From Bacteriovoracaceae bacterium (GTDB lineage: Bacteria > Bdellovibrionota > Bacteriovoracia > Bacteriovoracales > Bacteriovoracaceae): a stretch of 57,917 nt of DNA. A program made the position numbers and the translations under genes. Location: NCBI GenBank assembly GCA_029865945.1, contig JARXAH010000074.1:1-57917 (forward strand). The letters are read 5' to 3'. The notes below the pieces were generated by a model. The model worked only from the letters and a program-made list of their open reading frames with translations. It had not been told where the DNA came from and did no database searches. Position 1 is the first letter of the stretch. The number at the start of each line of letters is the position of its first letter. Below, one piece after another: positions 10,611 to 47,439 of the stretch.

Positions 10611-10721
10611 AAAGATTTAAAACCATTAAATTATTGAACTTTTTAACTTCATTCAGGTGCTAACACTTTGTACGAGGATTAAAAAAATTAAATTAAACTA
10701 AATTAATCAAGGGAGATGTTT

Positions 10722-17448: not shown

Positions 17449-17489
17449 AATGAAATTTAAAATTCCAAAAATGATAACGAATAATTTGT

Positions 17490-18122
17490 TTATTTTAATG
17501 TTGCCTTACCTTGAATTTCAAAAATCTCCCCAAGTTTGGCCACTACGATGCTGGGGTCTTCAATTCCAGCTTCAATAAATGAAAAATTTGTAGAAAATGT
17601 TATTTCGTAGGAGGCATCATCGTTTATCTTTTTGATTTCATATTTAAGCTTTCGGTTTAATTTTTTATCTTTGATGGATAACTCGATATCCATTTCTCCG
17701 GTTTTATTGTCGACTAAATCAATACTATCTTTAGTGGCCGCACTGATGGTGGGAAATTTTTCTGTGTCCAAACATTTTTTCCACATTTTTTCATTTCTTG
17801 AATCCTTATCTGTATCTAAACTTGATGCTGCAATCGATAGGGAAATATTTTTTATCGTATTTCCATTTTGTTCATACGTTAGTGAGAAGACCTTGGCGTA
17901 TCCATCAAATTCGGTCGTGAACATTTTAAGTTTGGTTGAAGTTCCGGTGAATTTTAAAAAATTTTTTGGGTTCTTGGACTCATCAAAAGAAGCATAATTA
18001 AACTTTGTTTCTTTAACATTAGTCGTAATCTTCGTCTCTTTTAGATCTTTTTTTATGGGTTTGGCCTGGATGGTAGAAACATAAGTACTGCAAAATAACA
18101 TCAAAATAAAAATCCCTTTCAT
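17490..18122 (-). CDS. YceI-family periplasmic lipid-binding protein
   Basis: 210 residues; signal peptide about 1-20 (MKGIFILMLFCSTYVSTIQA). The mature part has the YceI lipocalin-like pattern: NFLKFTGTSTKLKMFTTEFDG, ISLSIAASSLDTDKDSRNEKMW and LDTEKFPTISAATKDSI. YceI proteins hold an isoprenoid or other long amphipathic molecule in a beta-barrel. The start overlaps the preceding methyltransferase stop by 4 bases, so they are translationally coupled. Here it probably carries the phenolic lipid made by the operon across the periplasm. Confidence 0.8.
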   Translation of the reverse strand: MKGIFILMLFCSTYVSTIQAKPIKKDLKETKITTNVKETKFNYASFDESKNPKNFLKFTGTSTKLKMFTTEFDGYAKVFSLTYEQNGNTIKNISLSIAASSLDTDKDSRNEKMWKKCLDTEKFPTISAATKDSIDLVDNKTGEMDIELSIKDKKLNRKLKYEIKKINDDASYEITFSTNFSFIEAGIEDPSIVVAKLGEIFEIQGKATLK

Positions 18123-18649
18123 AAAAATAGTCTCCCTGTAATTTTTTTTTCTAAGTGTACACGATTGAAAATAAGAATTAGGTTAAGAGGAAAAAATATA
18201 ACTAAAGTCCAGTAAGCATGAAACAAGTAAGGCAAAGCAAAGAACTCTAAAATAACTGCTAAGTAACTAGGATGAGCAATAAAATGGAAAATTCCCTCTC
18301 GAGAGATAGGTTGGTTTTTTACGGCATAAATTTTTGCTGTCCAGTGAACCCCCAAAGCGCGCATGCTCTCCATCCTGAGAACCTGGGCGATGGTAAGCAA
18401 GAGGTAACAACCCATGGCCGGCAGGCCAAACAAAGTATTTTGTTGCGTGAGTGATTCCGTCATAAAAAAAATAAACCAAGACACGTGAAAGAAATAGACA
18501 AAGTAGTGCTCGTAGCGACTAAGCAGTTTTGCATTATGGTTTCGCAATAATATTTTTTCATTTCTGTGCGAAAGATTTATTTCGTACAATCGCGCAAGCA
18601 AGATAACGCCAAATAGAAGAAAAAAATGGTGATAAAATTTTGTATCCAT
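18119..18649 (-). CDS. Isoprenylcysteine carboxyl methyltransferase-like enzyme (SrsB/BpsB type)
   Basis: 176 residues with four or five membrane helices. The C-terminal motif REGIFHFIAHPSYLAVILEF (R-x-x-x-x-x-x-x-HP-x-Y) is that of ICMT-family proteins encoded next to bacterial type III polyketide synthases, such as SrsB of Streptomyces and BpsB of Bacillus, which O-methylate alkylresorcinols or alkylpyrones. Its start shares a base with the stop of the polyketide synthase gene (TAATG), the same gene adjacency. Acts in the inner membrane with SAM. Confidence 0.8.
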   Translation of the reverse strand: MDTKFYHHFFLLFGVILLARLYEINLSHRNEKILLRNHNAKLLSRYEHYFVYFFHVSWFIFFMTESLTQQNTLFGLPAMGCYLLLTIAQVLRMESMRALGVHWTAKIYAVKNQPISREGIFHFIAHPSYLAVILEFFALPYLFHAYWTLVIFFPLNLILIFNRVHLEKKITGRLFL

Positions 18650-19707
18650 TAGGATTCTCTAACTAAAATCATTTCCGCGCAAAACGCGGGCCCCATGGCA
18701 AGCATAAGTCCAAATGCTTTTTCATCTCTTTTAACTAGCGAATTAATTGATCTCTCTAAAACATTAATCACTGAAACCGAAGACATGTTTCCATGTTCTC
18801 TGAGGCTCTGGTAACTTTTGTTTAATTCTTCTGAATGAAGGTTTAATGATTCTTCCATCGCCGCAAGAACTTTAGGCCCACCCGGGTGAGAGATATAAAA
18901 CTTAATATTGTCTTGATTCAATTGATTGTTTGTTAAAAATTGTTTCACCGCTGGTACGAGCTCATCAGTTACAATTTTGGGAACGTCACCGGAGAGGACA
19001 AGCTTGAAACCCTGATCGACGATGTCCCATCCCATGATTCTTTCTGTCTTTGGAAAAAAACTACTTTCTGAGTTATAAACTTCATAGGCAGCTTTAGTTC
19101 TCCAAGGATGTTCACTTCCCACCATGATGATAGCACCAGCTCCATCAGCGAAAAGAGATGTTCCAATAATATTAGACATACTGAGATCATGGACTTGAAA
19201 AGTGAGGGAGCAAAGCTCAGTGGCCAAAATTAAAACAGATTCTTTTGGATAGGCCTTAAGATAATCGTGGGCCCTTGCCATGCAGGCAACTCCTCCTAAA
19301 CAGCCAAGGCCGAAGATGGGAAGTCGTTTCGTTTTTTTCGAAAAGGGAAAGAGATTCATTAGCCTTGCTTCAAGTGAAGGAATTGTCAGCCCAGTAATCG
19401 TAGTAGAAATGATCAATGAAATATCTTCAAGGGGAAATTTTAGTTGATTACTCATATACTCTAAGTTTTGGATCTGTAAGTTTAACGCCATTTCCTGCCA
19501 ATGATTATTTCGAAGCTCAAGACCATTTAAATTTCTAAAATTCTCCATGGGCAGCGACAAGCGACGCTTTTCCACTAGAGCATTTCTAAAAATCTTATCA
19601 ATCACCTCACTCTTTGAGGGATGAATCGATCCGATATAGTGACTCAACTCTGCTTGAGTGTATTCATGTTTAGGAAAAGAAGTTTTCGCTTTGATGATGA
19701 AGGACAT
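18649..19707 (-). CDS. Type III polyketide synthase (chalcone/stilbene synthase family)
   Basis: 352 residues, the full family length. The catalytic triad is visible: Cys136 in GLGCLGGVA, His274 in YISHPGGPK and Asn307 in GNMSSVSV. It should extend a long-chain acyl-CoA with malonyl units and cyclise it to an alkylresorcinol or alkylpyrone; the C-terminal GPAFCAEMILV fits the family. GGAG lies 8 bases before the ATG, inside the end of the preceding oxidoreductase gene whose stop directly abuts this start. Central enzyme of the cluster. Acyl chain and ring type cannot be told from sequence alone. Confidence 0.9.
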   Translation of the reverse strand: MSFIIKAKTSFPKHEYTQAELSHYIGSIHPSKSEVIDKIFRNALVEKRRLSLPMENFRNLNGLELRNNHWQEMALNLQIQNLEYMSNQLKFPLEDISLIISTTITGLTIPSLEARLMNLFPFSKKTKRLPIFGLGCLGGVACMARAHDYLKAYPKESVLILATELCSLTFQVHDLSMSNIIGTSLFADGAGAIIMVGSEHPWRTKAAYEVYNSESSFFPKTERIMGWDIVDQGFKLVLSGDVPKIVTDELVPAVKQFLTNNQLNQDNIKFYISHPGGPKVLAAMEESLNLHSEELNKSYQSLREHGNMSSVSVINVLERSINSLVKRDEKAFGLMLAMGPAFCAEMILVRES

Positions 19708-20892
19708 TTAAGAAGCTCCTTTTTTAAAAGCACTTGTGAAAATTACTTTGAACACTTCAAGGGGCGAATAAATATTTCCCACTAATCCAATGAATGTGTT
19801 GCGGATAAGTGGACTTAAATTAAGAAATGAGGCAACTCCATTACATAAACGAGGGTGTTTTATGAGCCATTGGAAAAAATAATTTACTATTTCTTTTTTG
19901 TGATAACTTTTTTTAATAATAGATTGATATTGCTCTAAGGCCATGGAGAAGCTCGTATGCTTGGCCATACTTTCGCTAAATACTTTGGCCGTAAGTAGTG
20001 CATGATAAATACCTTCCCCTGTCAAAGGGTCAACAAATCCAGCGGCATCTCCAACTAAGGCCACTTGCTTTTCTACGCAGCCAAGAGACTTTATGGGATT
20101 GGTAATTTTTCCTGTCACTTTAATGCTTTGCTTATCAGACATAGTTGCTGTATCGAAAAGCTCAGTGAGGCGCTTGGATCCATGAATAGTTTCTTTGATG
20201 AGATCTTCTGTAGATTTATATTTTTTCATTTTTGATCCATTACAGACAATGGAAAAGTTCCACACTTCTTCACTAACGGGGTTAAGCCCACAGTAAGATC
20301 CGTCATGAAAAATATGCATTTCACCTTGGGAGGATTTATTGCCTGATCTCGCATTTAAATAGGTATGGATGGCCACTCGTTGTTCCGTTACTTTTTTTGC
20401 GATATTTAGCCATTTACCCACGATGGATTGTCTTCCATCAGCACCAATCAAGTAATGTCCTTTCCAATGAGTTACTCCATCACTAATTGAGATATGGTCT
20501 TGTTCAAACTTTATAGATTGAATCTGGATTCCGAAGTGAAAAGTCACATTGTTGCTCTCTGCAAGTTTAATAATTTCATTATCGAAACGTTCTCTTTTTA
20601 GAGCATGTCCAAACTCATTATTGGGAAATCGAGTATTCACTATTTGAGAATTAGGTGAAAATAATTTCATACCAAAAATTTGAGGATAGCCGACTAAAAG
20701 ACTTTGAAGATTGAGTTCTTCCAAAAGGTTATGGCCAGCAGGGCAAAGGTATTCTCCGCAAACTTTGTTATTCACGGGAAAACTATTTTTTTCAAAAACA
20801 CTAACCTTAAATCCTTGCTGACTAAGTAAGTAGGCCGTCAGTGATCCGGCCGGCCCTGCTCCAATAATCATGATTTCTTTTATATTGTTCAT
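19708..20892 (-). CDS. FAD-dependent monooxygenase/reductase (SrsC / geranylgeranyl reductase-like)
   Basis: About 394 residues from the ATG at 20892; a GTG at 20901 is too close to the AAGGGA ribosome binding site. It has the FAD-binding GXGXXG (IIGAGPAGSLTAYLLSQ) with Glu ending the second strand (VFEKN), the DG motif (YLIGADGRQSIVG) and the FAD GD motif (VALVGDAAGFVDPLTGEG). The group includes geranylgeranyl reductases and aromatic hydroxylases. Next to a type III polyketide synthase and an ICMT-like enzyme, the closest role is ring hydroxylation as in SrsC, giving a quinone-forming phenolic lipid. First gene of the minus-strand operon, 90 bases from the divergent regulator. Confidence 0.85.
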   Translation of the reverse strand: MNNIKEIMIIGAGPAGSLTAYLLSQQGFKVSVFEKNSFPVNNKVCGEYLCPAGHNLLEELNLQSLLVGYPQIFGMKLFSPNSQIVNTRFPNNEFGHALKRERFDNEIIKLAESNNVTFHFGIQIQSIKFEQDHISISDGVTHWKGHYLIGADGRQSIVGKWLNIAKKVTEQRVAIHTYLNARSGNKSSQGEMHIFHDGSYCGLNPVSEEVWNFSIVCNGSKMKKYKSTEDLIKETIHGSKRLTELFDTATMSDKQSIKVTGKITNPIKSLGCVEKQVALVGDAAGFVDPLTGEGIYHALLTAKVFSESMAKHTSFSMALEQYQSIIKKSYHKKEIVNYFFQWLIKHPRLCNGVASFLNLSPLIRNTFIGLVGNIYSPLEVFKVIFTSAFKKGAS

Positions 20893-20982
20893 ATATTTCA
20901 CTTCCCTTGTTATTGATTATCGCCCCAGTTACAATTTATTTACATAGGACATTTGCGATAAAGGTTGAAAAATTAAGGGGTT

Positions 20983-21498
20983 ATGTTGCTTAATAGTACA
21001 CTTGCGATAAAGAAAGATGGTCTTTTTTTTATTATCATTTTTTCATTAATTATTATTTTTACATCTGTAGATATTGTCATGGATCTTAAGGAAGGTCTGC
21101 CCTTTGAACACGTTTCCCATGAAATAGGAATTGCTTGTTTATGTTTAATTTTGATTTTCTATCAGTTGAGGATTATTCGTAGAAAAAAATTAAAACTTAA
21201 GAATATAGAGCAAAATGTTGAGCATTTATCTCAGGAAAATAAGCAAATTAAGGATCAACTGAAAAAGTTCTCCGGTGATTTTCACCAGATTATTAATCTC
21301 CAAATGGAGCAATGGAACTTTTCTGACAGTGAAAAAGATATTGGTAGACTTATTATGAAAGGCCTTAATATGAAAGAAATTGCCCAAATTAGGCAGACAA
21401 ACGAATCTACAGTTCGTCAGCAGGCAACATCTATCTATAAAAAAGCTAACCTTCACGGACGCCAAGAATTTATTGCTTATTTTTTAGAGGACCTATGA
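20983..21498 (+). CDS. Membrane-anchored LuxR/GerE-type transcription regulator
   Basis: 171 residues: two membrane segments (about 12-30 and 46-63), a Lys/Gln/Glu-rich coiled coil (about 65-100), then a LuxR-type HTH (about 112-165: FSDSEKDIGRLIMKGLNMKE, then NESTVRQQATSIYKKANLHG). There is no receiver domain, so the signal is probably sensed in the membrane. It is divergent from the polyketide operon across about 90 bases and precedes the exporter by 40 bases, so it likely controls both. A DNA-binding protein held at the membrane fits control by the lipid product or envelope state; that is inference. Confidence 0.75.
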   Translation: MLLNSTLAIKKDGLFFIIIFSLIIIFTSVDIVMDLKEGLPFEHVSHEIGIACLCLILIFYQLRIIRRKKLKLKNIEQNVEHLSQENKQIKDQLKKFSGDFHQIINLQMEQWNFSDSEKDIGRLIMKGLNMKEIAQIRQTNESTVRQQATSIYKKANLHGRQEFIAYFLEDL

Positions 21499-21538
21499 AT
21501 GGTGCTGCGAGATTTAAAAAGGCAAAGGTTAGGTATCT

Positions 21539-23464
21539 ATGAAAAAACAGGTTTTCTCTTTTCTCATTATCAATATCATCTTTTTGGCCATAGGTTTTGG
21601 TGTAAAGCAAAAAAATCCTGAAGAGCTTTTTCTTTCAGATAATAATTTAAAATCACTAGAAGAATATAAAGAACACTTTGGTGAAGATGAAATAACCTTC
21701 GCTGCGGGTCTGAATAAGCAAACGATGGCCGCTCTCGAAAGTAAAGTGAGTGAAAGTGGTGGCGACTTAGTGAGTATTGATCGTCTCCTTTCTGGTCATG
21801 CGGTCTTTACTCTTCCCAATGTATTTGACGACGAAACTAAGTTTGAATTTTTTAACGCCGCACATAAGTTTGACTCAAAAATCAGTTTTGCTGGAGGAGA
21901 CTACACCAACGCGCAGCTTGCTGGGATGTCAGTCAAAATTCAAAAAGTAATTTTTCCTGCTATTTTTGGCATTATGTTTCTATGCCTACTGCTTATCTTT
22001 AGAAATTTCACCACTACAGCTTACTTATTTTTAACCTCTTTTGTAGGAGTTAGTGTCGGCTTTGCCGTTATAAAGATATTTTTTTCTTATTCCACTATTC
22101 TTACATCCCTTACACCTTTAGTGAGTTTTATACTCACCTTGGCAAATCAAATGCATGTTGTTTTTGGAATTCATACTTATAAAAGTAAATCCGTTTTTCT
22201 TAAGCGCAAGTTGTCGCCCATTTTGATTATGATGGTGACGACAGTCATTGGATTTTCGGGGCTTATTTTTAGCGATTTGATTAGCATTAGACAATTTGGT
22301 ATTGCCACGACGATTACGTTAATGATTACTTGGGGGTTAAATTTAATTTTTCTTTCAAACTTTTCGTTAAATTTTCACATACCCAAAAATAACTTTAAGC
22401 TCAAATTTTATCGCCCTACTTATCTCCCCTATTGGGGATTAGGAATCTGCATTTTACTACTTGGTGCAGGTGTTTATTCCTTAAAAAAAATGCCGACTTT
22501 AGTGGAGGCCATTTTTTTCTTTCCAGAAAACCATCCCGTGCGATTGGGACACAAGATTTTGGAAAAAGAATTAGGAGGAACTCCCCAATTTGATCTGGTG
22601 ATAACAAAAAATAATAAATCCGATTTAAATTATGAAGACTTGCTTACATTGGCCAAGTACGAGGGTTATATAAAAAATGAAACGTTACCTTTTAAAGTGC
22701 TCTCTTTAAATGCACTTATTTTAAAGGCCAATACCCTCTACTCAGGAAATGCAAGCTTACCAGATAATGAAAATGCTTACTTGATGTTGAGGGGCCAAGT
22801 TCCAGAAATGCTACGAAAAACGATGATGAACAAGTCTTCCTACAAGATTTCTTTTTTATCACCTCCGCTTACAACAACGGAGAGAAAACTCTATGTGCAG
22901 AAGTTGAAGGCCATGCTTGAAGAATTGCCTAGCGGATTTAGTGGAAAAATATCTGGTTTAAATTATTTGTTATTTGAATCACAATATCATTTAGTGACCA
23001 CACTTCTTAGTAGTTTGATGGGAAGCTTTCTGTTAATCGCTTTTATCTTTGCTTTATTTTCTAGAAATATTAAAGAGATTTTCCTTTTTGCCATCATAAG
23101 TTTATCCTCTATTTTTGGAGGTCTTGGGCTCATGAATCTATTAGGCTTTAGTCTAAATGTTTCAAGTATTATGATTTTAAGCATTAGTATCGGGCTTATT
23201 GACGATAGTACAATTCATCTTCTTTACGCGCGAAAGCATGGTGAATCCCACGAAACGATTCAATCATCTTGTTTGCTTCCTATGTTATTTTCTAATCTAG
23301 TGCTATTTGTCTGCTTTTTTCTGCTGGGACTTGAATCCTTTGTTCCTATTAAAGAATTTGCTTGGGGCCTAGTCTTAATGCTGGGTATGGGGCTTTCGTT
23401 GGATTTATTTGTATTACCTATGCTTGATAGGTCCAAAGCAGAAGAAAGAAAAACTCTCATTTAG
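21539..23464 (+). CDS. RND-superfamily (MMPL-like) lipid exporter
   Basis: 641 residues. The pattern is the MMPL/SSD type: TM1 (about 5-20), a periplasmic domain, five helices (about 135-285), a second periplasmic domain (about 310-480) and five more helices, with the signature SIGLIDDSTIHLLYARKHGE carrying the acidic proton-relay residues. Proteins of this size without a membrane-fusion partner export hopanoids, mycolates, carotenoid-like pigments or other lipids. It lies directly after the LuxR-type regulator and beside the type III polyketide synthase operon, so transport of the phenolic lipid is the natural role. GGTTAGG precedes the ATG. Confidence 0.8.
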   Translation: MKKQVFSFLIINIIFLAIGFGVKQKNPEELFLSDNNLKSLEEYKEHFGEDEITFAAGLNKQTMAALESKVSESGGDLVSIDRLLSGHAVFTLPNVFDDETKFEFFNAAHKFDSKISFAGGDYTNAQLAGMSVKIQKVIFPAIFGIMFLCLLLIFRNFTTTAYLFLTSFVGVSVGFAVIKIFFSYSTILTSLTPLVSFILTLANQMHVVFGIHTYKSKSVFLKRKLSPILIMMVTTVIGFSGLIFSDLISIRQFGIATTITLMITWGLNLIFLSNFSLNFHIPKNNFKLKFYRPTYLPYWGLGICILLLGAGVYSLKKMPTLVEAIFFFPENHPVRLGHKILEKELGGTPQFDLVITKNNKSDLNYEDLLTLAKYEGYIKNETLPFKVLSLNALILKANTLYSGNASLPDNENAYLMLRGQVPEMLRKTMMNKSSYKISFLSPPLTTTERKLYVQKLKAMLEELPSGFSGKISGLNYLLFESQYHLVTTLLSSLMGSFLLIAFIFALFSRNIKEIFLFAIISLSSIFGGLGLMNLLGFSLNVSSIMILSISIGLIDDSTIHLLYARKHGESHETIQSSCLLPMLFSNLVLFVCFFLLGLESFVPIKEFAWGLVLMLGMGLSLDLFVLPMLDRSKAEERKTLI

Positions 23465-23578: not shown

Positions 23579-23705
23579 TATACTGATGCAGGTTTGGTTT
23601 TCAAGAAGGAGAACGAGCGGTGAGACGCTGAGACGTGCTCATGCACGTCGCAAGCGACGAATCCCGAAGTTCGACGCACTGGAAAATCAAAACCGCATCA
23701 GTATA
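23579..23705. repeat. Structured repeat, copy D
   Basis: 127 bases between the exporter and the lipoprotein gene. Ends 23579-23602 and 23682-23705 pair at 21 of 24 positions (TATACTGATGC with GCATCAGTATA outermost). Hairpins: GACGTGC/GCACGTC (23632-23649) and GCG-A-CGAA/TTCG-A-CGC (about 23653-23677, loop TCCCGAAG). Its ends match those of copy F, and the first hairpin arms equal those of copy B. Confidence 0.85.
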
Positions 23706-23729
23706 TACCAAACTATTGGGACGGGGACT

Positions 23730-25817
23730 ATGAGACAAAAAATTTTACTAGCGACGAGTCTACTATTCTTATTTCTTTCATGCTCAAAAAAAGAGAATTC
23801 AACAACGGTAGAAGATCCAACTAAGGATATTGCGGAAATAGAAAAAATTGAAAAAGATGAGCTCAATAAGAGCGGAATAGAGTTGGCCTATAAAAGAAAC
23901 CAAACAGAACATTCGGTTGGTTTAAGTGATTCGTCAAAGTCAAAATATATGGATTGGGCCTCAAGCGAAGATGCGATGAAAGCGATTAACCACTATATTG
24001 AAGTTACTGATAAGTTTATAAAAAAATTTTCCAACCTTGAGTCTACGAATAATAAAGTCGCGGAGATCATGCTCAAAAATAAATACCTAAAGCAGAAATT
24101 AAAAACAGCGCTCTTGATTTCTCCTTCAAAAGAGCATAAAGGCAATGAGCTCAAATGGAGGGATTGTCCAACCAATTTTATTTCCCAGACAAAATCTATC
24201 GAAGCTCTATTTAATCAAATTTTTCCTTATGGGGCTAAAACTGAGCAAGCTTTAAAAACAAGTAAAGAATTTAGCACGCATTTCGCACCAAAAGAATTGA
24301 GTATTGAATGTGAAAAATTTATCTCTTCTTTTGGAGATCAAAAATTTGAATGTAAGTATAAGTCAAATGATGGAACCATGAATTATGACAGTTCTTACCA
24401 GGGATGGAGATTTTGCGAACAATTAAAAATGGCGAATACCTCGTATCCAAAATATTTCGAAGAAGATCAAAGAGTAAAATTCAGCGTAAATATTGGAGAA
24501 ATCCAGACATTTAAAATCATTAACGAAGCGGCCATGGTGATAAAAAAATCGGTCAATGAAAACAAATTCGCTTATATATCTGATGTTTTAACTTGGATGA
24601 AACAAAACTTTCAACTAGGGATAATTTCATCAACTGAACCAAAAGAAAATATTCTCAAGGAAATGGCCGGAAAATTTAATCAAACAACGAAAATAGATGA
24701 TTTCAAAATTTTACTAAATCTTGCTTACTTAAAAAAATACAGCAAACTCTTTTATCAGAAGGATAAAACAAATATTTTCGATATTGATTCAGTTCAAATG
24801 TCTCAATGTTACTCTGGTACATGGGCCTTTTGGTACTCGCTACTCAGTACTTACCCTGAAGTTATTAATGAACGAAAGCTTGTTAATATATATGCTGAAG
24901 GGCACATCCTTCCTGGGGAAATTCAAAATATAAAGGGAGTAAATTATTTATTTGGATTTGAATCTACTGTAATTGGTAAAGGGTTAGTAAGATTTGGAGA
25001 CGTATCCCGTCTAGACAAAAAAATTATTGTGATTGATTTAAAAACGGATTTAATCATAGATAATTTAAAATTCTCGATTAAAAACAATACTGAATTAAGA
25101 AATCAAGCAATTCAAAATACCATGATGGAATATGGAATTTCTTATATAGCGACACTTCAATTTGACCCTTTATCCATTCCAACAGGACTGGTGACGTTTC
25201 TTTTTAATCAATCTTTTTTTGCTTTTGGTGATAGTAACGTTGATGACAAAGTTATACCAATGCAGCAGATGGATGAGGTCCCTTTGGATTCTTTTGGTCA
25301 CTTATATGGAAAGACTAACACATCTTTAATCATTCCTTATGCGCCTAAGAATGAAATCGAGGAAAAGAGGAAAGAAAGTGAAGAGATCCACCCTAATCTC
25401 ACAGCGGAAAAAGAAATCGTAAAAGTCGTAGAAAAAAACGACGAATTCATTAACATATGTGATCGTGATATTTTTGGGGTATATATAGCAAAAAGCGTTG
25501 GCGCAGAAAATTGTGAAAAAGTTTCTAGGCGCAAGATGGTATCCCTTGAAAAAATAGATCTAAGCGGCGCCCGTATAAGTACTATTCCTCAAAATGCTTT
25601 TGAGGGATTATTTTCACTGAAAGAAATTGATCTAAGTAATAATCAAATAAGCACACTTCCTGATGATCTATTCAAAGATATGAAAGATTTAAAATTAGTT
25701 GACCTCCAAGACAACCCGATAGAAAAAGTTGAAAGAGACTGTCTTGGAATCAATGAAGAAGCATGGATTACTCTTGGGTATTCATTGAAGCCAGAGAGAA
25801 AGATTGAGACGTGGTAG
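23730..25817 (+). CDS. Large lipoprotein with C-terminal leucine-rich repeats
   Basis: About 695 residues from the ATG at 23730; the frame is open back to 23586 only by reading through repeat D. A lipoprotein signal peptide with lipobox FLSC (Cys about 19) is followed by a charged linker, so it is anchored in the inner or outer membrane. Most of the protein is unrecognised, with several Cys (WRDCPT, IECEKF, FECKYK, RFCEQL). The C-terminus has leucine-rich repeats (LEKIDLSGARISTIPQNAF, LKEIDLSNNQISTLPDDLF, LKLVDLQDNPIEKV), a protein-binding module. Single gene; it overlaps nothing and faces the convergent regulator operon. Confidence 0.7.
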   Translation: MRQKILLATSLLFLFLSCSKKENSTTVEDPTKDIAEIEKIEKDELNKSGIELAYKRNQTEHSVGLSDSSKSKYMDWASSEDAMKAINHYIEVTDKFIKKFSNLESTNNKVAEIMLKNKYLKQKLKTALLISPSKEHKGNELKWRDCPTNFISQTKSIEALFNQIFPYGAKTEQALKTSKEFSTHFAPKELSIECEKFISSFGDQKFECKYKSNDGTMNYDSSYQGWRFCEQLKMANTSYPKYFEEDQRVKFSVNIGEIQTFKIINEAAMVIKKSVNENKFAYISDVLTWMKQNFQLGIISSTEPKENILKEMAGKFNQTTKIDDFKILLNLAYLKKYSKLFYQKDKTNIFDIDSVQMSQCYSGTWAFWYSLLSTYPEVINERKLVNIYAEGHILPGEIQNIKGVNYLFGFESTVIGKGLVRFGDVSRLDKKIIVIDLKTDLIIDNLKFSIKNNTELRNQAIQNTMMEYGISYIATLQFDPLSIPTGLVTFLFNQSFFAFGDSNVDDKVIPMQQMDEVPLDSFGHLYGKTNTSLIIPYAPKNEIEEKRKESEEIHPNLTAEKEIVKVVEKNDEFINICDRDIFGVYIAKSVGAENCEKVSRRKMVSLEKIDLSGARISTIPQNAFEGLFSLKEIDLSNNQISTLPDDLFKDMKDLKLVDLQDNPIEKVERDCLGINEEAWITLGYSLKPERKIETW

Positions 25818-25820: not shown

Positions 25821-26015
25821 TTATTTACCCTGCTTGATCTTTAAATTTTCAACCCCTTCATCAAACAACTTCAGTGCCTTCTTTAGCACCACAAATTCTT
25901 CAACATCGGGGATCGATCCTTCTTTCAAGTCAAACACGATACTTGAAAATGATAGATTAATTAATTCCAATCTTCCTCTTAGATCATGAATGAGATTTTT
26001 AGTTGTATTGTCCAT
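25821..26015 (-). CDS. Miniprotein resembling a histidine-kinase H-box helix
   Basis: 64 residues; start ATG at 26015 with GGGAG 6 bases upstream. Residues 6-25 (KNLIHDLRGRLELINLSFSS) look like the H-box of a HisKA dimerisation domain (HDLR followed by a hydrophobic helix), and the rest could form the second helix of the hairpin. No ATP-binding domain follows. It lies 32 bases after the NtrC-type regulator gene in the same direction. It may be a phosphotransfer or docking partner of that regulator; inferred from motif and position only. Confidence 0.5.
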   Translation of the reverse strand: MDNTTKNLIHDLRGRLELINLSFSSIVFDLKEGSIPDVEEFVVLKKALKLFDEGVENLKIKQGK

Positions 26016-26047
26016 TAATTACTCCCTTAAGTCTCTTTCTCGGTTTT

Positions 26048-27433
26048 CTATTTTGGAGCTCTCTTATTTTTCACATCTTTCAAATAATAGAAAAGACTTC
26101 GCCTGGAAATCCTATAATTTTTTGATATCAGGTTTTTATTATTTTGATGTTCCTGCAAGGCAAAGGCAAAGAATTCATTTTTGATACGTTCTTGAAGCTT
26201 AGATAGGCTTTGATTTTCTTTCACATAAGCAATTTGCTCTTCAGTCAAAAAACCACTAGATACTACTCCTGTGACTGCGCGACCTTGAGCTTGCGAGTTT
26301 CCGAAAAGATTTTTATCAAAAAAATACTTAGCAACAACGTCCTTCGTCACAATACCCGATTTCACATCTGACAAACTAAAGATTACTTTACTTAGCTCTC
26401 TAATATTTCCAGGCCAACTATAATTAAGTAAAATTTCTTTCGCATCACTATCCATAAATACGCTGCGAATAGCTTGTCCTAGAAAGTGATCTATCAAAAT
26501 TTTCAGATCAGCTTTCCGTTCGCGAAGAGGTTTAATGTGAATCATTCTCCCGTTGATGCGATTAAAAAAATCGGCACGCATTTTTCCACTAATGACTAGC
26601 TCTTCCAGATTTTTCAGTGTTGCAGTCACCAGCAAAAAATTGGAATAGATTTTTTTAACTCCGCCGACTCGCGTAAATTCTTTTTCCTCAATGACCTTAA
26701 GAAGTGTTTCTTGAGTGGACAGCGGCAGATCCCCTACTTCATCTAAAAATAATATTCCATCACTTGCTAATTCTACTTTTCCAATTTTTTGTTGATTGGC
26801 CCCCGTGAAGGATCCCTTCTCATGGCCAAAGAGTTCCGATTTGATGATCTCATCATCAAGGCCTGCACAGTTGAGTTCAATAAGCTCACCCGACATTCCC
26901 AGCAAATATTTTAAGCATTTTGCAAGCTGGGTTTTTCCCACTCCCGATTCGCCACTTATAAAAATGGGCTCCATGGGCGCATAGGTATTACAAATGGATT
27001 CGAGAGAATCAATAAGATCAGCGTCTTTCGTTATGTAAGTAGTCTTTGTTATCCGTTGCACGTTTTTTCTAAGCTCACGTCCATTCACCAATTTTTTAAT
27101 AAAAAATTCTAAATGCGTTCTCAAATTGCTTTTTTTTAAAAAATCATCGACGCCAGACTCATAAGATTGCCTGATCAAATCTTCGTCGTTTTCAAAATTT
27201 GTAACTGCGATGACGTGGGCCACTCCCCTTTTCTTAGATAGCTTAGCAATCTTGGGGCCAATAATTTCATTTCCGATTTTTATATCTAATATGGCGCACT
27301 CAAATTCGTGGGTAGATAAAAGTTTTTTTGCACTCTCAAAATCCTTCGCAATGAAGACCTTTCCATAAATGGATAAACTCTTCGACAAAAAGTCCGCAAA
27401 TTTCTCATCATCTTCTAAAACTAGAAAGTTCAT
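26048..27433 (-). CDS. NtrC-family sigma-54-dependent response regulator
   Basis: 461 residues: receiver domain (1-115) with phosphorylation Asp50 (CAILDIK) and the acidic pair EDD at 7-9; AAA+ domain (about 135-365) with Walker A GESGVGKTQ, the sigma-54 contact loop GSFTGA (common variant of GAFTGA), Walker B GILFLDEVGDLP and arginine-rich NRINGR region; C-terminal Fis-type HTH (ISRRSLFYYLK). It activates sigma-54 RNA polymerase when phosphorylated. It diverges from the secreted-protein operon at 27640, whose promoter is a perfect -24/-12 element at 27540-27555, so that operon is the probable target. No full sensor kinase gene is nearby. Confidence 0.92.
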   Translation of the reverse strand: MNFLVLEDDEKFADFLSKSLSIYGKVFIAKDFESAKKLLSTHEFECAILDIKIGNEIIGPKIAKLSKKRGVAHVIAVTNFENDEDLIRQSYESGVDDFLKKSNLRTHLEFFIKKLVNGRELRKNVQRITKTTYITKDADLIDSLESICNTYAPMEPIFISGESGVGKTQLAKCLKYLLGMSGELIELNCAGLDDEIIKSELFGHEKGSFTGANQQKIGKVELASDGILFLDEVGDLPLSTQETLLKVIEEKEFTRVGGVKKIYSNFLLVTATLKNLEELVISGKMRADFFNRINGRMIHIKPLRERKADLKILIDHFLGQAIRSVFMDSDAKEILLNYSWPGNIRELSKVIFSLSDVKSGIVTKDVVAKYFFDKNLFGNSQAQGRAVTGVVSSGFLTEEQIAYVKENQSLSKLQERIKNEFFAFALQEHQNNKNLISKNYRISRRSLFYYLKDVKNKRAPK

Positions 27434-27448
27434 CTACTACCCCGTTAG

Positions 27449-27470
27449 TGCAAAATATAAACTGCAAAAT
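27449..27470. promoter_or_regulatory. Direct repeat, candidate activator binding site
   Basis: TGCAAAAT occurs at 27449-27456 and again at 27463-27470, 14 bases apart and 70-90 bases upstream of the -24 element. Sigma-54 activators usually bind at such distances. Assignment to the divergent regulator is inference. Confidence 0.35.
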
Positions 27471-27539
27471 GCAACGATGAACCAATGATGTCAACTTTAA
27501 TCTATCACGCTCCCCTGACCATACCTAGGGAAGATAGGT

Positions 27540-27555
27540 TGGCACACTCCTTGCA
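27540..27555 (+). promoter_or_regulatory. Sigma-54 (-24/-12) promoter
   Basis: TGGCAC-ACTCC-TTGCA matches the consensus TGGCAC-N5-TTGCW at every fixed position. The expected transcription start is about 27566, leaving a leader of some 75 bases before the ATG at 27640. The divergent gene encodes a sigma-54 activator, which strengthens the call. Confidence 0.85.
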
Positions 27556-27639
27556 ATCCCTGGTTCAATCTTATTTGCGCAAGTGAGACAGTCTTTTACT
27601 TTGTAAAAGAAATATTTAAATAACGAAGGGAATTTAAAA

Positions 27640-29268
27640 ATGAGTTGGACAAAAAAATTATTAACGATTGCTGCTCTGGGACTCTTTGCCCAGCACGCAT
27701 TGGCCGAACCCTCTCTTGAACCGGATGCAGCGGCACTCGCCAATTTATCTAAATTGAATCTAAAAAAAACTTCTTCCAACGTTTTGGCCGATGATGCTAA
27801 TCCGAATTTATTTTGGGTTCTTCCCCCCAATTCTGGTTATGCTCGTATGGATGGCGCGCTCACTGGTGAAACGGCCAATATGGTATTTTGTAATGAGATG
27901 ATTGATTTGGCGAAATACTCTCGTGATCTTTCAAAAAAGAAAAGTGAACTTATTCGAGAAGTTAGCGGCCTTAAGAAAAAAGCACTAGCTGCGAATCAAG
28001 AGGCATCAAAAGCAAAAGAAGCTGCCTTGAAATATAGTAAAGACAACCACCTCGACATTATTTCAAATATTGATAATGAATTGGCAAAATTAAATGATAC
28101 TGCTCATGAGCTTTATGACCAAAGAGAGCAATGTGGGGATTCTGCAATTTGCGCAAATTTAGATGAACGAATTAAGAGTACTTCACAAAATATATCTAAA
28201 CTTAATCAAAACAAAATAGCAGCTATTCAAACCGCGGGAAAAAATGCTCAGAAATATAATAAATTATATAATATTTATCTTGGAAAACTTGAGACTGCTA
28301 ACCATCTATGGGATGGATATAATTCTGTTTCAGGATTTCTTGAAAAAATGCGGCAAGATTTTTTAGTTGCCTTTAATGCTTTTGGAAGATTGGAAGGCGG
28401 AAGAGCAAATATTACTTATGATAGTGGATGGTCTAAAAATGTTAAAACTCTCAATGATCTCAATCCGCAATATACGTTTCAACCTGTTCGAACAACTAAT
28501 GCAGTCTTAATGCCAGAGGCGAATGCACCTTATATTGATGGATCAACCACCATTTTGCGAACAAGTATTCCAGGTGCCACAGAATTAGGTGGGTCGTCCA
28601 TTTTGGGATCTTTTCCGGATGCCATTTCTGCAGGAGTCATTTATTCCCTCAGTGGTGCATGCCCCATTAATCAACCGGCCGAGTTTAATCATAAAGGCGA
28701 CTTAGCGAGTGTCGGAATAGTGGCAACATATGATTATCAAACATCGTACAAATTTGATATTACTGCATCATTCAACATGAGTAGTATCCTTACCAAGGCC
28801 CAAGAAGTTAGTAAGAAAAGAAGACTATTAAATTCTTCGAATACAACAACTTCAAGCATGAAAAGTGATTATGATGACCTAGTCAACATAAGTTGGAATG
28901 ATCATTCTGGGGCAATTGATCCATTGGTTAAGGAAAAAAGAGAAGCTGAGATTAGAAATAGTATTTTTAGACGGCTTGCCTTTATGGCCCTACCCATGTC
29001 AAACGACCGGGCGGCCACGCTGATAAATGCTGGAGCAGTGCCTCCAAGTGGAGCAGGACAAATTAGTACAACGCTATTGGAGACATGTCCTGCTAATTAC
29101 TATTGTGTTGCTGGAGCGGCGGCACTCACCATTCTTGACAATATATTTGGAGGAGGCAAAACAGCAGCAAATTTTACGTCGGTAAAAAACATCGATATTG
29201 TTGAACACTACTCTGAAGCAGGGTTAATGAAACAATCGGCCGGCGTTGGCTATAGTATTCAAAAATAA
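27640..29268 (+). CDS. Secreted coiled-coil protein, first gene of the sigma-54 operon
   Basis: 542 residues; signal peptide 1-22 (ending QHALA). Residues about 80-215 are a long Lys/Glu/Ala-rich coiled coil (SKKKSELIREVSGLKKKALA and following). The C-terminal half is probably beta-rich and has two Cys pairs (ACPINQ; ETCPANYYCVAG). No family recognised. The ribosome binding site GAAGGGA precedes the ATG. It is the gene nearest the sigma-54 promoter and is followed by an intercistronic hairpin and the 332-residue secreted protein. A surface or envelope structure component made on demand is a reasonable guess. Confidence 0.65.
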   Translation: MSWTKKLLTIAALGLFAQHALAEPSLEPDAAALANLSKLNLKKTSSNVLADDANPNLFWVLPPNSGYARMDGALTGETANMVFCNEMIDLAKYSRDLSKKKSELIREVSGLKKKALAANQEASKAKEAALKYSKDNHLDIISNIDNELAKLNDTAHELYDQREQCGDSAICANLDERIKSTSQNISKLNQNKIAAIQTAGKNAQKYNKLYNIYLGKLETANHLWDGYNSVSGFLEKMRQDFLVAFNAFGRLEGGRANITYDSGWSKNVKTLNDLNPQYTFQPVRTTNAVLMPEANAPYIDGSTTILRTSIPGATELGGSSILGSFPDAISAGVIYSLSGACPINQPAEFNHKGDLASVGIVATYDYQTSYKFDITASFNMSSILTKAQEVSKKRRLLNSSNTTTSSMKSDYDDLVNISWNDHSGAIDPLVKEKREAEIRNSIFRRLAFMALPMSNDRAATLINAGAVPPSGAGQISTTLLETCPANYYCVAGAAALTILDNIFGGGKTAANFTSVKNIDIVEHYSEAGLMKQSAGVGYSIQK

Positions 29269-29281
29269 AACCAATTAAAGG

Positions 29282-29314
29282 CTTGCGATGGATCGGCGAA
29301 TGGTGTATCGCAAG
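29282..29314 (+). other. Intercistronic hairpin in the sigma-54 operon
   Basis: CTTGCGAT at 29282-29289 pairs with ATCGCAAG at 29307-29314 (17-base loop), just after the stop of the first gene. No T-run follows, so it is more likely an RNA-stability or processing element than a terminator; it could give the first gene a higher mRNA level. Confidence 0.45.
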
Positions 29315-29361
29315 TCCTAAATTATATTTTAAATTTAATTAAATTAAATCGGAGAACAAAT

Positions 29362-30360
29362 ATGAAAATTTTAAATGGCCTCTTACTATCACTTTGTTAC
29401 ACAATTTTACTTCCTGCCTACGCTTCTTTAAAATTTAGCAACGGCGCGTTTTATTCAGTTCCTTATTCGGATGTCGAAACCATCTCATTAAAACTTGATT
29501 ACCCTGAGAATAATTTCACCCCTTCTGTTGTGATGAAAAATCTTAGTAACGAGTGTGCTAATTTTAGAAAATTTTTTAAAAAAAATCCGCCAAATAATGA
29601 GGCGACAATTAAAACTTATCGCGATTCCGTAAAACAACCATTTTTTTTAGAAAATTCCTTTCCAGATTTTGCGGCAAAGTTTAAAGTGGACGCAGACGCA
29701 ACGAACAAAGCGATTGCACAGAATCGCAATTCAGCAAATTCACTTCTAAACGACAGAAATTCCAACTTAGGCAACATCAAACAAACAAGTATATCATTGG
29801 TACTTACTAATTATAATTTCATCGTCCGCTCTATATCTTCAGACTCATTAACGGCGTTTGCAGATAAATATGGAATTAAACCTCTTGAAATTGAATTGTC
29901 CAACAAAGTACCCATGAGACTAGCAGGCGACATGATGGAATTTCAAAATATTTACATTCGAGGAAGAGATACCTTTTGCGATTTGATGGAAGGAAAAGCG
30001 GTTTTAGAAGCAAGTGGCGTGTCCCATGTTAGTGTAGCGCCGGAAGAACTTGAAGAGGTTTCCGATTTCTATAATAAATCCATTCCTCCGATGGTTGAAA
30101 AAGTTTTCAAAAATCAATCAAAGATCAAAAGTCGAGCAGCTTTAGTGGGATTCCACTTAGGTGAAATTCTCAAGTCATCCAGTGACCAGATTGTTGATGA
30201 GACTTATTTCCCGCAAAAAATTGAGTCATTAGTTGATAGTTTATTTGATGACTCGTTCCAAAAAAATAATTTGTGGTCGAAAAATAATCCTTCCCATCCT
30301 ATTATCATTCCCAACTACCAATCCCTCCCTGTGGCGCTTACTTTTCAGGTCAAAAAATGA
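29362..30360 (+). CDS. Secreted protein of unknown function, second gene of the sigma-54 operon
   Basis: 332 residues with a signal peptide (1-21, ending LPAYA); GGAG lies 8 bases before the ATG. There are three Cys (LCYT in the signal, NECANF and TFCDLM in the mature protein, the last two possibly paired). The C-terminus ends in SLPVALTFQVKK, a beta strand with alternating residues. The stop overlaps the next gene by 4 bases (ATGA). No family recognised. Expected to act with the coiled-coil protein before it. Confidence 0.65.
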   Translation: MKILNGLLLSLCYTILLPAYASLKFSNGAFYSVPYSDVETISLKLDYPENNFTPSVVMKNLSNECANFRKFFKKNPPNNEATIKTYRDSVKQPFFLENSFPDFAAKFKVDADATNKAIAQNRNSANSLLNDRNSNLGNIKQTSISLVLTNYNFIVRSISSDSLTAFADKYGIKPLEIELSNKVPMRLAGDMMEFQNIYIRGRDTFCDLMEGKAVLEASGVSHVSVAPEELEEVSDFYNKSIPPMVEKVFKNQSKIKSRAALVGFHLGEILKSSSDQIVDETYFPQKIESLVDSLFDDSFQKNNLWSKNNPSHPIIIPNYQSLPVALTFQVKK

Positions 30361-30845
30361 AAGTAAAATACACATTCATTCTTTCCATTTCTGTCCTGGC
30401 CGTGTTATCCACTTTTTGGTTTCCATTCGCTAAGAATTCATCATCAGAAGAGGCAATGCAAAAAAACATATCATTGATGGACCAGCAGAAGGGGCAGGAA
30501 TGGGTAAAGGAAACGACACCTGATCAATACCAGGGAAATCAGACGAAAAATTTTGATTACAAAAACGAAATTCTTGTAGCTAGAAGCAAAGCACCCTCGC
30601 TTACGGAGTTAAGTAAATCCTATGAATCGATGGATGATCAAAATGAATTAAAGGAAGAGTACAATCATTCATTAGAGCTAATAAAAAAGCTTGATCTCAT
30701 TGGGAAGGCCAATAAGGAAAAATTAACTAGCGATGAGTTGGTGATATTAACGACTGAGATGAGGAAGCAGGGGGTAATTGGCTTAAGGCTTGCGGAACTT
30801 GAATTTGAGAAATATGAACAAAGCAACCCTAACATTAATAATTAA
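30357..30845 (+). CDS. Exported or membrane-anchored small protein
   Basis: 162 residues. The N-terminus MKVKYTFILSISVLAVLSTFWF is a single hydrophobic segment, either an uncleaved anchor or a signal peptide without a clear site. The rest is highly charged and helical (SLTELSKSYESMDDQNELKE, LDLIGKANKEKLTSDELVIL), acidic overall. Start overlaps the preceding stop (ATGA), so it is coupled to it. No family recognised. Confidence 0.65.
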   Translation: MKVKYTFILSISVLAVLSTFWFPFAKNSSSEEAMQKNISLMDQQKGQEWVKETTPDQYQGNQTKNFDYKNEILVARSKAPSLTELSKSYESMDDQNELKEEYNHSLELIKKLDLIGKANKEKLTSDELVILTTEMRKQGVIGLRLAELEFEKYEQSNPNINN

Positions 30846-30868
30846 AAATTAAAAAGAAGGCAATGGTT

Positions 30869-31057
30869 ATGAAAATAATGATTACTTTTCTAGGCATTCT
30901 GATTTGCACTTCTTGTTTACGGAAAATAGAAGGACAGAATAACTTACAAATCCCGAAGCAAGAAGTTCAAGCATTACAAGAGCGATGCATGCAATCAAAT
31001 GAAGAGAGCAACGTTTTTGTTTTAACTAAAGAGCTTCAAGAAAACAAAAAAACTTAG
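30869..31057 (+). CDS. Lipoprotein, N-terminal part of a frameshifted gene
   Basis: About 62 residues from the ATG at 30869, which has AGAAGG 8 bases upstream (an ATG at 30863 is too close to that site). Lipobox CTSC in the signal peptide. The frame stops at 31055-31057 directly after a run of seven A (31046-31052). A -1 shift in that run continues the reading as KNLDSLWNRNAIEENKEEIE in the next frame without a gap, giving one lipoprotein of about 239 residues. Either a real mutation, a sequence error, or slippage on the A-run. Confidence 0.6.
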   Translation: MKIMITFLGILICTSCLRKIEGQNNLQIPKQEVQALQERCMQSNEESNVFVLTKELQENKKT

Positions 31058-31062
31058 ATTCA

Positions 31063-31587
31063 TTGTGGAATAGGAATGCCATTGAGGAAAACAAAGAAGA
31101 AATTGAAAAAATTTCTTTAAACATTACAAAAATTGTTGAGAAGCTTAAAGAAGTCACCTCCTCTGAATTTTCTGAAAAAAAAATTCCCTTTCAAATTGTT
31201 TGGGATATTAAAAAGGATATAATCCAGCAAGATATTGAGAAAATTTCATCGCAAAACTACATGGATAAAACGTACTGGCGACTAATCGACAAAAGAATTT
31301 CGAAGATATACTCCGGCGGAAGAGAATTGGCCTTTGACAACTCGGATGCTAGAAATACTAAAGATGGTATTATCACTTCATTTTCTAACAACAGTGAGAA
31401 CGGAATTCAAGTGAGCCGCGAGGGAGTTGCTTCTGCCCTTGATGTATGCCAGCTACAAAAGGTACTTTTAATTGTCGTAGAGCTCGTTTACAGAAAAATT
31501 AATCCCAATTCCATTATTGATAAAAAATTTCCTGCGGCCTTAAAAGAGATTAAACTAAGATATGGACTTGTGGTTAAAAACTCCTAA
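31063..31587 (+). CDS. C-terminal part of the frameshifted lipoprotein
   Basis: 174 codons, whose only nearby start is a TTG at 31063 without ribosome binding site, so it is unlikely to be an independent gene. The sequence is helical and charged (EIEKISLNITKIVEKLKEVT) then a mixed domain with DVCQLQKVLLIVVELVYRKI. Joined to the preceding frame by a -1 shift at the A-run at 31046-31052 it forms the body of the lipoprotein. No family recognised. Confidence 0.6.
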   Translation: MWNRNAIEENKEEIEKISLNITKIVEKLKEVTSSEFSEKKIPFQIVWDIKKDIIQQDIEKISSQNYMDKTYWRLIDKRISKIYSGGRELAFDNSDARNTKDGIITSFSNNSENGIQVSREGVASALDVCQLQKVLLIVVELVYRKINPNSIIDKKFPAALKEIKLRYGLVVKNS

Positions 31588-31657
31588 CAATTGTTTTAGG
31601 TGAAAGCTGAAAAATGATTATTGAGAGAATAAAAATTTTTACTTAGCGAAAGGATGG

Positions 31658-32002
31658 ATGATGAAACATGTGATGAAGTTGATGATGATTATTAGTTTTT
31701 GCGTTATTTTAAATTCCTGCTCGAATGGAGGAGGCGATGGTGCAGGCGCGGGAGGTAATTCAGGCACGAGCAATCAGCCTCAACAAAATCCTGAAAATGA
31801 AGCAGAGACAGAAACTCTTACTACGTCGGAAATTGCCAATGTCGACGCCTGTAAGGAAAAACTGCAAGTTACTATTTTAGAAAATGGTAATTCTCGAAGC
31901 GCAACTCCTGGAGAAATTGCGGCGCAGGGATATTTAATTTCTAAGAAATGTGGTTTTTCTGAAGCGGAACTCCAGTACTACCTAAGAAAACAGGGATACT
32001 AA
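31658..32002 (+). CDS. Small lipoprotein, last gene of the sigma-54 operon
   Basis: About 114 residues; ATGs at 31658 and 31661 both follow AAAGGA closely, the second at better spacing. Lipobox LNSC, then a Gly-rich flexible linker (NGGGDGAGAGGNSG) and a short folded part with two Cys (VDACKEK, KKCGFSE) and a conserved-looking end LQYYLRKQGY. It follows the frameshifted lipoprotein by 70 bases and precedes a terminator-like hairpin. No family recognised. Confidence 0.7.
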   Translation: MMKHVMKLMMIISFCVILNSCSNGGGDGAGAGGNSGTSNQPQQNPENEAETETLTTSEIANVDACKEKLQVTILENGNSRSATPGEIAAQGYLISKKCGFSEAELQYYLRKQGY

Positions 32003-32019
32003 ATTATATTTTTAAAAAA

Positions 32020-32053
32020 AAAGTTGCATGGATGAAACAATCCGTGCAGCTTT
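32020..32053 (+). terminator. Probable terminator of the sigma-54 operon
   Basis: AAAGTTGCATGGAT pairs with ATCCGTGCAGCTTT around the loop GAAACA, 14 positions with two wobble pairs, 17 bases after the last stop codon. A-rich before, but only a short T/C tract after, so efficiency is uncertain. Confidence 0.6.
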
Positions 32054-32239: not shown

Positions 32240-34003
32240 TTACTGTTCCATGGATTGAAGTATTTTTTGCTTAAGGCAGTGATCTATAACTAATAATTTG
32301 GCCGAATCAGGTAAAAATCTGAATATTTGAGTCGATTTTTGCAGTGAGGCAATCAATCCTTCTGCATGAGTTACTGGCAAGCCTAAAGATTGATCCAACA
32401 AATTATCAAAAGATGTGAAAGAGTTACCCTGAGAGACTTTTAAAAAATCTAAGATAGCAAAAAATGCATGCCTGGAGGCATTGTAGGAGGGACCTTTTAA
32501 TCGGCGTACTAAGTCTGGCAATAAACCTTTTTCTACCAGTTCCTTTTCTGCCGTGAAGTATATTTTCATTTTTTCATTCATGGCCGAAAAAAAATGGACT
32601 GGCTTTTCAAAATGAGCATATTGGTCATAGACAGCATAGTTAGACAAATAGTTATCAATGAATGGATCTAAAGATGAATGGTAATCATCATTTTTTTTTA
32701 TTTCTGCAGCAAGTTTTTTATTAAATTCATTCATCACTACCACATGATAATCTCTTGGGTGATATACTGGCAGTGTGGATATTGCTCCCCAAACACCAAC
32801 AGAAAATCTGGTGTCGTATCCAGTATTTACTTGGTAAATTACTTTATTTTTTTGATCGTAGAAACCTTGCATTAGTTTGAGTGGTAAAGTTTTTTCTTTG
32901 GATATGAAATGAACTTTATTACTGACGAATTTCAAAAAATCCGAAACGTCATCTCTAATTTGCGTATTAGCTACTGCAGATGAGAGTGATTCAATAAATT
33001 GGTTTACTTGATGTAAAGTGCTCGGGTTAGAGTCTGAAGGATTAGGGATGTTATCGGTAATAATATGATACATCTTTTCAGAACTTGTTTGTCCAGCATT
33101 TAGGTAATGTTGATAGGCATAAAGCAATGTAGAAAACCCATACTGCAGCTGGGATAATCCTTTCATGTCAGGCCCTCTTTGAATAACTGTTAAAACGTAA
33201 TTATCCTGTTTTAGGTTAATCATTTTTGCAGTATGAGATCTTAGTATTCCTTTTTTAAGAGCATCATTTATCGCTGAAAAAAAATCGGCTGGGCTTGGAT
33301 AAGTTTCATTTAATTCCCTTCTATCACTAAAAAAACCCACTGAAGAAGGATTAACATCAACTTTTGCAAAAAATAAACCATTATTTTTTTCCAAACCACT
33401 TAGTAAGAAATCCTTATAGCTGCTATCATAATATTCTGGATATATTATTACATTGCCTTCTAATTTAAGGGACTCAGGAAAAGATAGTCTACCTCTGGTT
33501 GTTATACTTTGCTCGGAGTTCATCAGAAATAATCTGCAATTTTTAGAAGAAAGAGAATTATTTTCTTTTTGATTGAAGTACGCTGAATTCATGATCGCCA
33601 CGGGTATATTTATTTTATTCATCACAACAGATCTATTCTGATAAACACTAGAATTGCCCTCTGCTGCGTTAAGTTGATTCAACAAATCAATATCAATTAT
33701 TTCTTTTGTAATAAGATCCTCAGTATAAATCAGTTTATGCGTATCATAAGGCATTGGAGGATTTTCAGAATTAGGATAAGCCTTAGCAGGCAACATCAGA
33801 AATTTGATTTCTATTTTTTTTAAAATGTCAGGATGTTGACTTAGATCGAATAACACATTTTTGAATAAACTTTTATTGAGTCCTAAATCACCATACCCAT
33901 CAGGCATGTTGATGCCTGAAGTAAAGAATATTTGAATTTTATCACAGCTCCAAGTTTTCACCGCGGACATAAAAAGTAACACGCCTATCACAGATAATTT
34001 CAT
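32240..34003 (-). CDS. Large secreted protein of unknown function
   Basis: 587 residues; signal peptide 1-19 (ending KTWSC; the Cys could be either the last signal residue or the first mature one). The mature protein begins DKIQIFFTSGINMPDGYGDL and is a long soluble alpha/beta protein with few Cys (KNCRLF, DHCLKQ). No HEXXH, lipase or other catalytic motif is recognised. It follows the 273-residue secreted protein by 19 bases on the same strand, so the two form an operon. Located at the convergent boundary with the sigma-54 operon. Confidence 0.65.
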   Translation of the reverse strand: MKLSVIGVLLFMSAVKTWSCDKIQIFFTSGINMPDGYGDLGLNKSLFKNVLFDLSQHPDILKKIEIKFLMLPAKAYPNSENPPMPYDTHKLIYTEDLITKEIIDIDLLNQLNAAEGNSSVYQNRSVVMNKINIPVAIMNSAYFNQKENNSLSSKNCRLFLMNSEQSITTRGRLSFPESLKLEGNVIIYPEYYDSSYKDFLLSGLEKNNGLFFAKVDVNPSSVGFFSDRRELNETYPSPADFFSAINDALKKGILRSHTAKMINLKQDNYVLTVIQRGPDMKGLSQLQYGFSTLLYAYQHYLNAGQTSSEKMYHIITDNIPNPSDSNPSTLHQVNQFIESLSSAVANTQIRDDVSDFLKFVSNKVHFISKEKTLPLKLMQGFYDQKNKVIYQVNTGYDTRFSVGVWGAISTLPVYHPRDYHVVVMNEFNKKLAAEIKKNDDYHSSLDPFIDNYLSNYAVYDQYAHFEKPVHFFSAMNEKMKIYFTAEKELVEKGLLPDLVRRLKGPSYNASRHAFFAILDFLKVSQGNSFTSFDNLLDQSLGLPVTHAEGLIASLQKSTQIFRFLPDSAKLLVIDHCLKQKILQSMEQ

Positions 34004-46958: not shown

Positions 46959-47023
46959 AACTCACCCCTTTTTCATGATCTGCGACATATTTTTTTAAAT
47001 TTCAAAATGCTACTTTAAAGTTA

Positions 47024-47356: not shown

Positions 47357-47382
47357 CTGATCACCATTATCAAGAAAATTAC

Positions 47383-47404
47383 AAACATGACCCAGATCAT
47401 GTTT
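47383..47404. promoter_or_regulatory. Fnr/Crp-type binding site upstream of ccoI
   Basis: Perfect 8-base dyad AAACATGA, spacer CCCAGA, TCATGTTT, containing TGA-N6-TCA, the half-site spacing of Crp/Fnr sites. A -10-like TAGAAT (47423-47428) puts the transcription start near 47435 and the dyad centre at about -41.5, the class II activator position. Confidence 0.75.
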
Positions 47405-47439
47405 ACTAAGTGAGTCTCTGCTTAGAATGCTAGATATAT

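Follow-up and report, generated by a model that had tools for sequence, protein, structure and literature searches.

In Vibrio, the LuxPQ-LuxU-LuxO system is composed of a periplasmic binding protein, a hybrid membrane kinase, a small histidine phosphotransfer protein, and an NtrC-type sigma-54 activator (PMC5394107). Between them, the loci described here carry a matching list of parts (binding protein, kinase, small histidine protein, and NtrC-type activator). LuxU is a monomeric HPt protein, whereas the small protein considered here appears DHp-like, and LuxPQ-LuxU-LuxO targets small RNAs, whereas the target here is a putative envelope operon. Unlike the Vibrio system, moreover, the DNA at the center of this study itself encodes no kinase.

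Phosphotransferases that use a DHp-type helix pair include Spo0B and PhyT, and in Spo0B a degenerate catalytic domain follows the DHp. In ChpT, phosphotransfer likewise takes place on a DHp-type helix pair, after which comes a degenerate catalytic domain (PMC9981736). Judged by sequence likeness, a 64-aa protein of the present locus would share the DHp-type helix pair with ChpT, Spo0B, and PhyT; however, ChpT and Spo0B keep the degenerate catalytic domain, whereas the family of the 64-aa protein ends after two helices, at 64–76 aa. The locus has the layout of an NtrC-type sigma-54 activator placed opposite the operon that it controls, with divergent genes, a REC-AAA+ regulator, an upstream element, and a −24/−12 promoter, but the target operon here belongs to no Pfam or NCBIfam family.

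The locus lies in what we call the window, the entire 57,917-nucleotide stretch of Bacteriovoracaceae DNA that was analyzed, which is part of contig C36; the genome measures 3.08 Mb, and its closest named relatives are Bacteriovoracaceae MAGs. The sigma-54 switch described in an initial annotation of this DNA is real, and it has more support than that annotation could give. That annotation had not picked up a second copy of the locus, a broken gene, or the small histidine protein encoded behind the activator. What is new is that the regulon is duplicated and has a candidate activator element, that relatives of its operon occur across the phylum, and that a DHp-like protein is a candidate relay step.

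Activator, promoter, and second copy

The regulatory region contains the following features.

26048–27433, minus strand: NtrC-type response regulator with a receiver, a sigma-54 AAA+ domain, and a C-terminal helix-turn-helix-like tail (PF00158, PF00072)
27446–27473, no strand assigned: candidate activator site TAGTGCAAAnTAnAAACnnnAAAATGCA, 28 bp, 23/28 identical in the C19 copy
27540–27555, plus strand: −24/−12 sigma-54 promoter TTGGCACACTCCTTGCA, TGGCAC-N5-TTGCA, with zero mismatches to the consensus
27592–27610, plus strand: predicted 5′ leader hairpin (TCTTTTAC-TTT-GTAAAAGA), kept in the C19 copy with one G-U pair

Against Pfam, the regulator matches PF00158 (E 3e-47) and PF00072 (E 6e-9). 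Its AAA+ motifs are GESGVGKT at 161, the GSFTGA loop within 203–212, and LFLDE near 227, and the receiver residues D8 D9, D50, T78, and K100/K101 are intact. The two Pfam matches and the GSFTGA loop bear out the initial assignment of this gene as an NtrC-type activator divergent from the promoter. The C-terminal tail gives no Pfam HTH match; the presumed DNA-reading residues within it, ISRRSLFYYLKD, are identical in a paralogue on contig C19 of the same genome. The two activators share 74% identity, a value above that of most operon products.

The promoter had been read as a perfect TGGCAC-N5-TTGCA, and it is indeed free of mismatches and unique in the window, where it remains the sole match even when one mismatch is allowed. 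Its GG and GC doublets stand 10 bases apart inside TGGCAC-N5-TTGC. Across the whole genome, TGGCACN5TTGCW occurs at six sites and the same pattern read backwards at one; rpoN is a single gene. From the position of the promoter, transcription is expected to start at ∼27566 (range 27564–27568).

Contig C19 holds genes A, B, C, D/E, and F (listed below) in the window order, together with a divergent activator. Identities to the C19 copies are 44% for A, 39% for B, 68% over 88 aa for C, and 67% for F, and the −24/−12 site ahead of gene A on C19 (TTTGGCATGATCGTTGCA / TTTGGCATGATCGTTGCAATG) matches that of the window in position.

A direct repeat, TGCAAAAT, present at 27449 and 27463, had been proposed as the activator site. 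The repeat is real, but only the outer parts of the surrounding 28-bp element are conserved in C19 and the second TGCAAAAT is not kept, and we refine the candidate site to the whole element at 27446–27473. The 23/28 identity between the window and C19 was matched by none of 200 shuffles, and at three mismatches or fewer the element occurs genome-wide in these two places and no others. In both, it lies upstream of the promoter and near the activator start codon, at a distance from the −24 element of ∼66 bp in the window and ∼160 bp in C19, and both spacings are workable for DNA looping. Because the element overlaps the start region of the regulator gene, the regulator may also limit its own expression.

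Between the window and C19, conservation is higher in the leader DNA than in the gene that follows. The hairpin predicted there has a z of −2.3 in the window and 0.25 in C19, and an Rfam search of the window returned no match.

The operon across the phylum

Downstream of the promoter, the genes and the hairpin that follows them are as listed here.

27640–29268, plus strand: gene A, secreted 542-aa protein, modeled with a long antiparallel coiled coil (79–249) and beta domains
29362–30360, plus strand: gene B, secreted 332-aa protein with a confident model (pTM 0.80)
30357–30845, plus strand: gene C, 162-aa protein with an apparent N-terminal membrane anchor, 4-base overlap with gene B
30863–31587, plus strand: gene D/E, one lipoprotein gene in two frames in the window, with a break at the A7 run 31046–31052
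31658–32002, plus strand: gene F, small lipoprotein with the lipobox LNSC, 67% identity to the C19 copy
32020–32053, no strand assigned: hairpin between converging genes, T9 run on the minus strand

When the operon products (27640–32002) were compared with Pfam and NCBIfam, no family scored above its cut-off. Fold comparison of A and B with the PDB gave no match at E ≤ 0.001, as did fold comparison of A with viral models, and coiled coils were the only matches in a PDB sequence search with the A profile; the model of A has a pLDDT of 78 and a pTM of 0.52. A weak match of F114 to Bd0108, the hit locus protein, was rejected, being low-complexity and scoring 14.4 against a cut-off of 40 (NCBIfam NF053838). 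Since neither A nor B has a fold match, we infer function no further than an envelope assembly, made up of A with its predicted coiled coil, B, one protein anchored in the membrane, and two lipoproteins. An envelope or secreted assembly had been suggested earlier, and the Sec and lipoprotein signals on the products, taken with the conserved gene order, support it. The companion statement that every gene of the operon encodes a secreted protein or lipoprotein of no known family holds as to families, but the 162-aa product of gene C looks anchored in the membrane by its N-terminus rather than released.

Two features of the operon were revised. The frames at 30863–31057 and 31063–31587 had been taken as separate genes. 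Their counterpart is a single 239-aa ORF in C19 and a single ORF in other relatives, and the window frame is broken at the A7 run; the two genes are thus one lipoprotein gene, whose break may reflect slippage, a genuine frameshift, or a fault in the assembly. The hairpin at 32020–32053, previously assigned as the operon terminator, does exist. Since the minus strand carries its long T-run, however, it best ends the converging gene at 32240–34003. As a terminator of the operon, it is weaker.

Relatives of gene A were found in 54 of the 369 genomes of the phylum, few of them within the family Bacteriovoracaceae, and in most of the loci read, B, C, and D/E come after gene A. A scored search for −24/−12 sites covered the 260 bp upstream of 25 operons, with 265 other genes from the same loci, unmatched for operon position, as controls. 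Sites scoring at least 12.3, a threshold picked on these same data and with which several other thresholds agree, precede 12/25 operons and 12/265 control genes (Fisher p ∼1e-8); at a score of at least 14, the counts are 7/25 and 1/265. This enrichment and the second genomic copy support the earlier proposal of sigma-54 control by a dedicated activator. If the −24/−12 match had instead arisen by chance, the operon would be read from another promoter. About one site is indeed expected in the window at one mismatch, but the match is perfect, its position is apt, it is conserved in C19, and such sites are enriched among relatives, all of which makes coincidence most unlikely.

About half of the 25 operons have no good sigma-54 site before them, and no clear −24/−12 site precedes the operon in genome G187. 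NtrC-type activators lie near the operon in the window, in C19, and in genomes G036, G127, G187, and G284. In some lineages, an XRE or TIGR02147-like regulator is divergent from gene A, and sigma-54 control is therefore recurrent, not universal. This pattern also bears on the suggestion, made in the initial annotation, that the structure is produced in the attack phase or on prey contact. The Bacteriovoracaceae group includes predators, and the operon products are envelope proteins, as that suggestion would have it. However, the operon is patchy at the frequency given above, and the regulators before it differ among lineages. Such patchiness speaks against a part that predation cannot do without, and we give production on prey contact only a slight chance.

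Other loci were noted in passing. In the window, 16044–23464 encodes a type III polyketide synthase, a FAD enzyme, methyltransferases, a LuxR-type regulator, and an MMPL-like exporter, and looks like an alkylresorcinol/pyrone-type lipid cluster. A lipoprotein with C-terminal leucine-rich repeats is encoded at 23586–25817; its listed ATG is probably too early, with the lipoprotein signal beginning at MRQKILLATSLL. At 46215–56867, as read from the ORFs, Fnr/Crp-like regulators are followed by an apparent cbb3 oxidase, a copper ATPase, and maturation genes, which look like a typical microaerobic respiration cluster. Elsewhere in the genome, at loci L127 (G000:C75) and L128 (G000:C83), genes for an activator and small histidine protein diverge from type IV secretion system (T4SS) genes and from one for a sigma-70 region 4 protein, with TGGCAC/TGGCAT-N5-TTGA sites between the divergent gene sets. 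Locus L131 (G000:C3), at 880–15444, has an operon of four genes for secreted proteins that is preceded by a perfect sigma-54 site and is divergent from a VirB/VirD4-type secretion cluster; this operon was considered as a relative of genes A and B and rejected, with B unsupported and A doubtful.

The small histidine protein and a proposed relay

One further gene completes the regulatory region.

25821–26015, minus strand: 64-aa protein with an HDLR motif (MDNTTKNLIHDLRGRLELINL...), proposed minimal DHp-type phosphotransferase, directly downstream of the activator

Directly behind activators of this type, homologues of the 64-aa protein are encoded on two further contigs of the genome (C75 and C83), in G036 and G026, and in three Bacteriovoracaceae MAGs, and in a family-wide search the small protein was found behind the activator in 8/8 strong matches. 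In G127, an HD-bearing 132-aa protein is encoded at that position. In an alignment of seven members, nothing but the start Met and His10 is invariant, and the motif is mostly HD, with one HK. The 64-aa protein has no match in Pfam. When a profile of the small proteins was aligned with the kinase DHp domains of these loci, His fell on His with a score of 16.4; column-shuffled controls (n = 200) reached a maximum of 13.5, and the reversed control reached 8.75. The hhalign probability for the same comparison is 3.7%, with a short protein. Because this value is low, the likeness to a lone kinase dimerization/histidine domain is put forward as a supported inference and not as demonstrated homology. 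The 64-aa protein probably hands the signal on to the activator, which would make it an unusual variant of a known relay.

Most NtrC-type regulators receive phosphate directly from a kinase. A plain two-component switch would work in the same way here, with direct phosphorylation of the activator by a kinase encoded elsewhere; the 64-aa protein would then be a regulator or a bystander. In favor of such a switch, the C19 activator has no small histidine protein behind it, and standard measures score the DHp match weakly. It accounts less well for the presence of the small protein behind this activator type in every strong match, with its start Met and His alone invariant, and for the receivers carried by the C19, G036, and G127 kinases, as by relay kinases. 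We judge direct phosphorylation unlikely, though worth keeping in view.

The surroundings of related pairs bring in a different possibility. The nearest pairs of activator and small protein (C75, C83, G026:C8, and three MAGs) face VirB2/VirB4-type clusters, some of which include serine recombinases, and on C3 a T4SS adjoins genes for secreted proteins that are driven by a perfect sigma-54 site. The switch could have come from conjugative elements with type IV secretion, with the operon serving DNA transfer or mating contact. No T4SS gene was seen in the window or by the C19 copy, however, none of the operon products matches a T4SS family, and the relation of the C3 operon to the window operon is doubtful at best. 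A role in DNA transfer or mating contact strikes us as improbable; the A operon and conjugative elements may have exchanged the regulator pair itself.

The reading we favor, and regard as fairly probable, is that of a sigma-54 output module fed by a LuxPQ-LuxU-LuxO-like phosphorelay, in which a minimal DHp protein takes the part of LuxU and which drives an envelope assembly. In C19, G036, G127, and G187, the A operon has genes for a binding protein and a kinase next to it; the kinases of C19, G036, and G127 are membrane proteins with receiver domains, and that of G187 is without a receiver. The window contains no kinase gene, and no binding protein and hybrid kinase are linked to its activator, so that the putative kinase partner is assigned from the neighborhood in other loci, and the signal is likewise putative. 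In this genome, the closest candidates for the kinase and the binding protein lie beside the C19 copy. With these beside C19 and the DHp-like protein beside the window copy, the two loci may share one relay.

In the proposed relay, a membrane kinase (often hybrid) would read a periplasmic substrate-binding protein, and phosphate would pass from the kinase to the 64-aa DHp-like protein and from there to the receiver of the activator. The phosphorylated regulator would then form a hexamer on the 28-bp element at 27446–27473 and reach sigma-54 RNA polymerase by DNA looping, leading to transcription from ∼27566.

As for the input, OppA-like binding proteins adjoin the kinases in several lineages. 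A YcaO-like protein is encoded alongside in C19 and G187, in both cases below the family cut-offs, and the two show a weak pairwise match. In G036 (L049:4600–5824), a gene for a 104-aa secreted peptide is followed by a radical SAM enzyme, near the binding protein, the kinase, and the A operon; this pair is a possible source of a modified-peptide signal. A fuller version of the relay, in which a bare helix pair of ∼65 residues of DHp type passes on an oligopeptide input, perhaps modified, to switch on envelope assembly in Bdellovibrionota, is in our view a doubtful extension.

These findings name a testable sigma-54 regulon for Bdellovibrio-like bacteria and define a conserved operon of envelope proteins that was previously undescribed. 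If true, the proposed relay suggests that a DHp helix pair by itself can replace an HPt protein in a phosphorelay, a step that would be smaller than any other of its type known to us.
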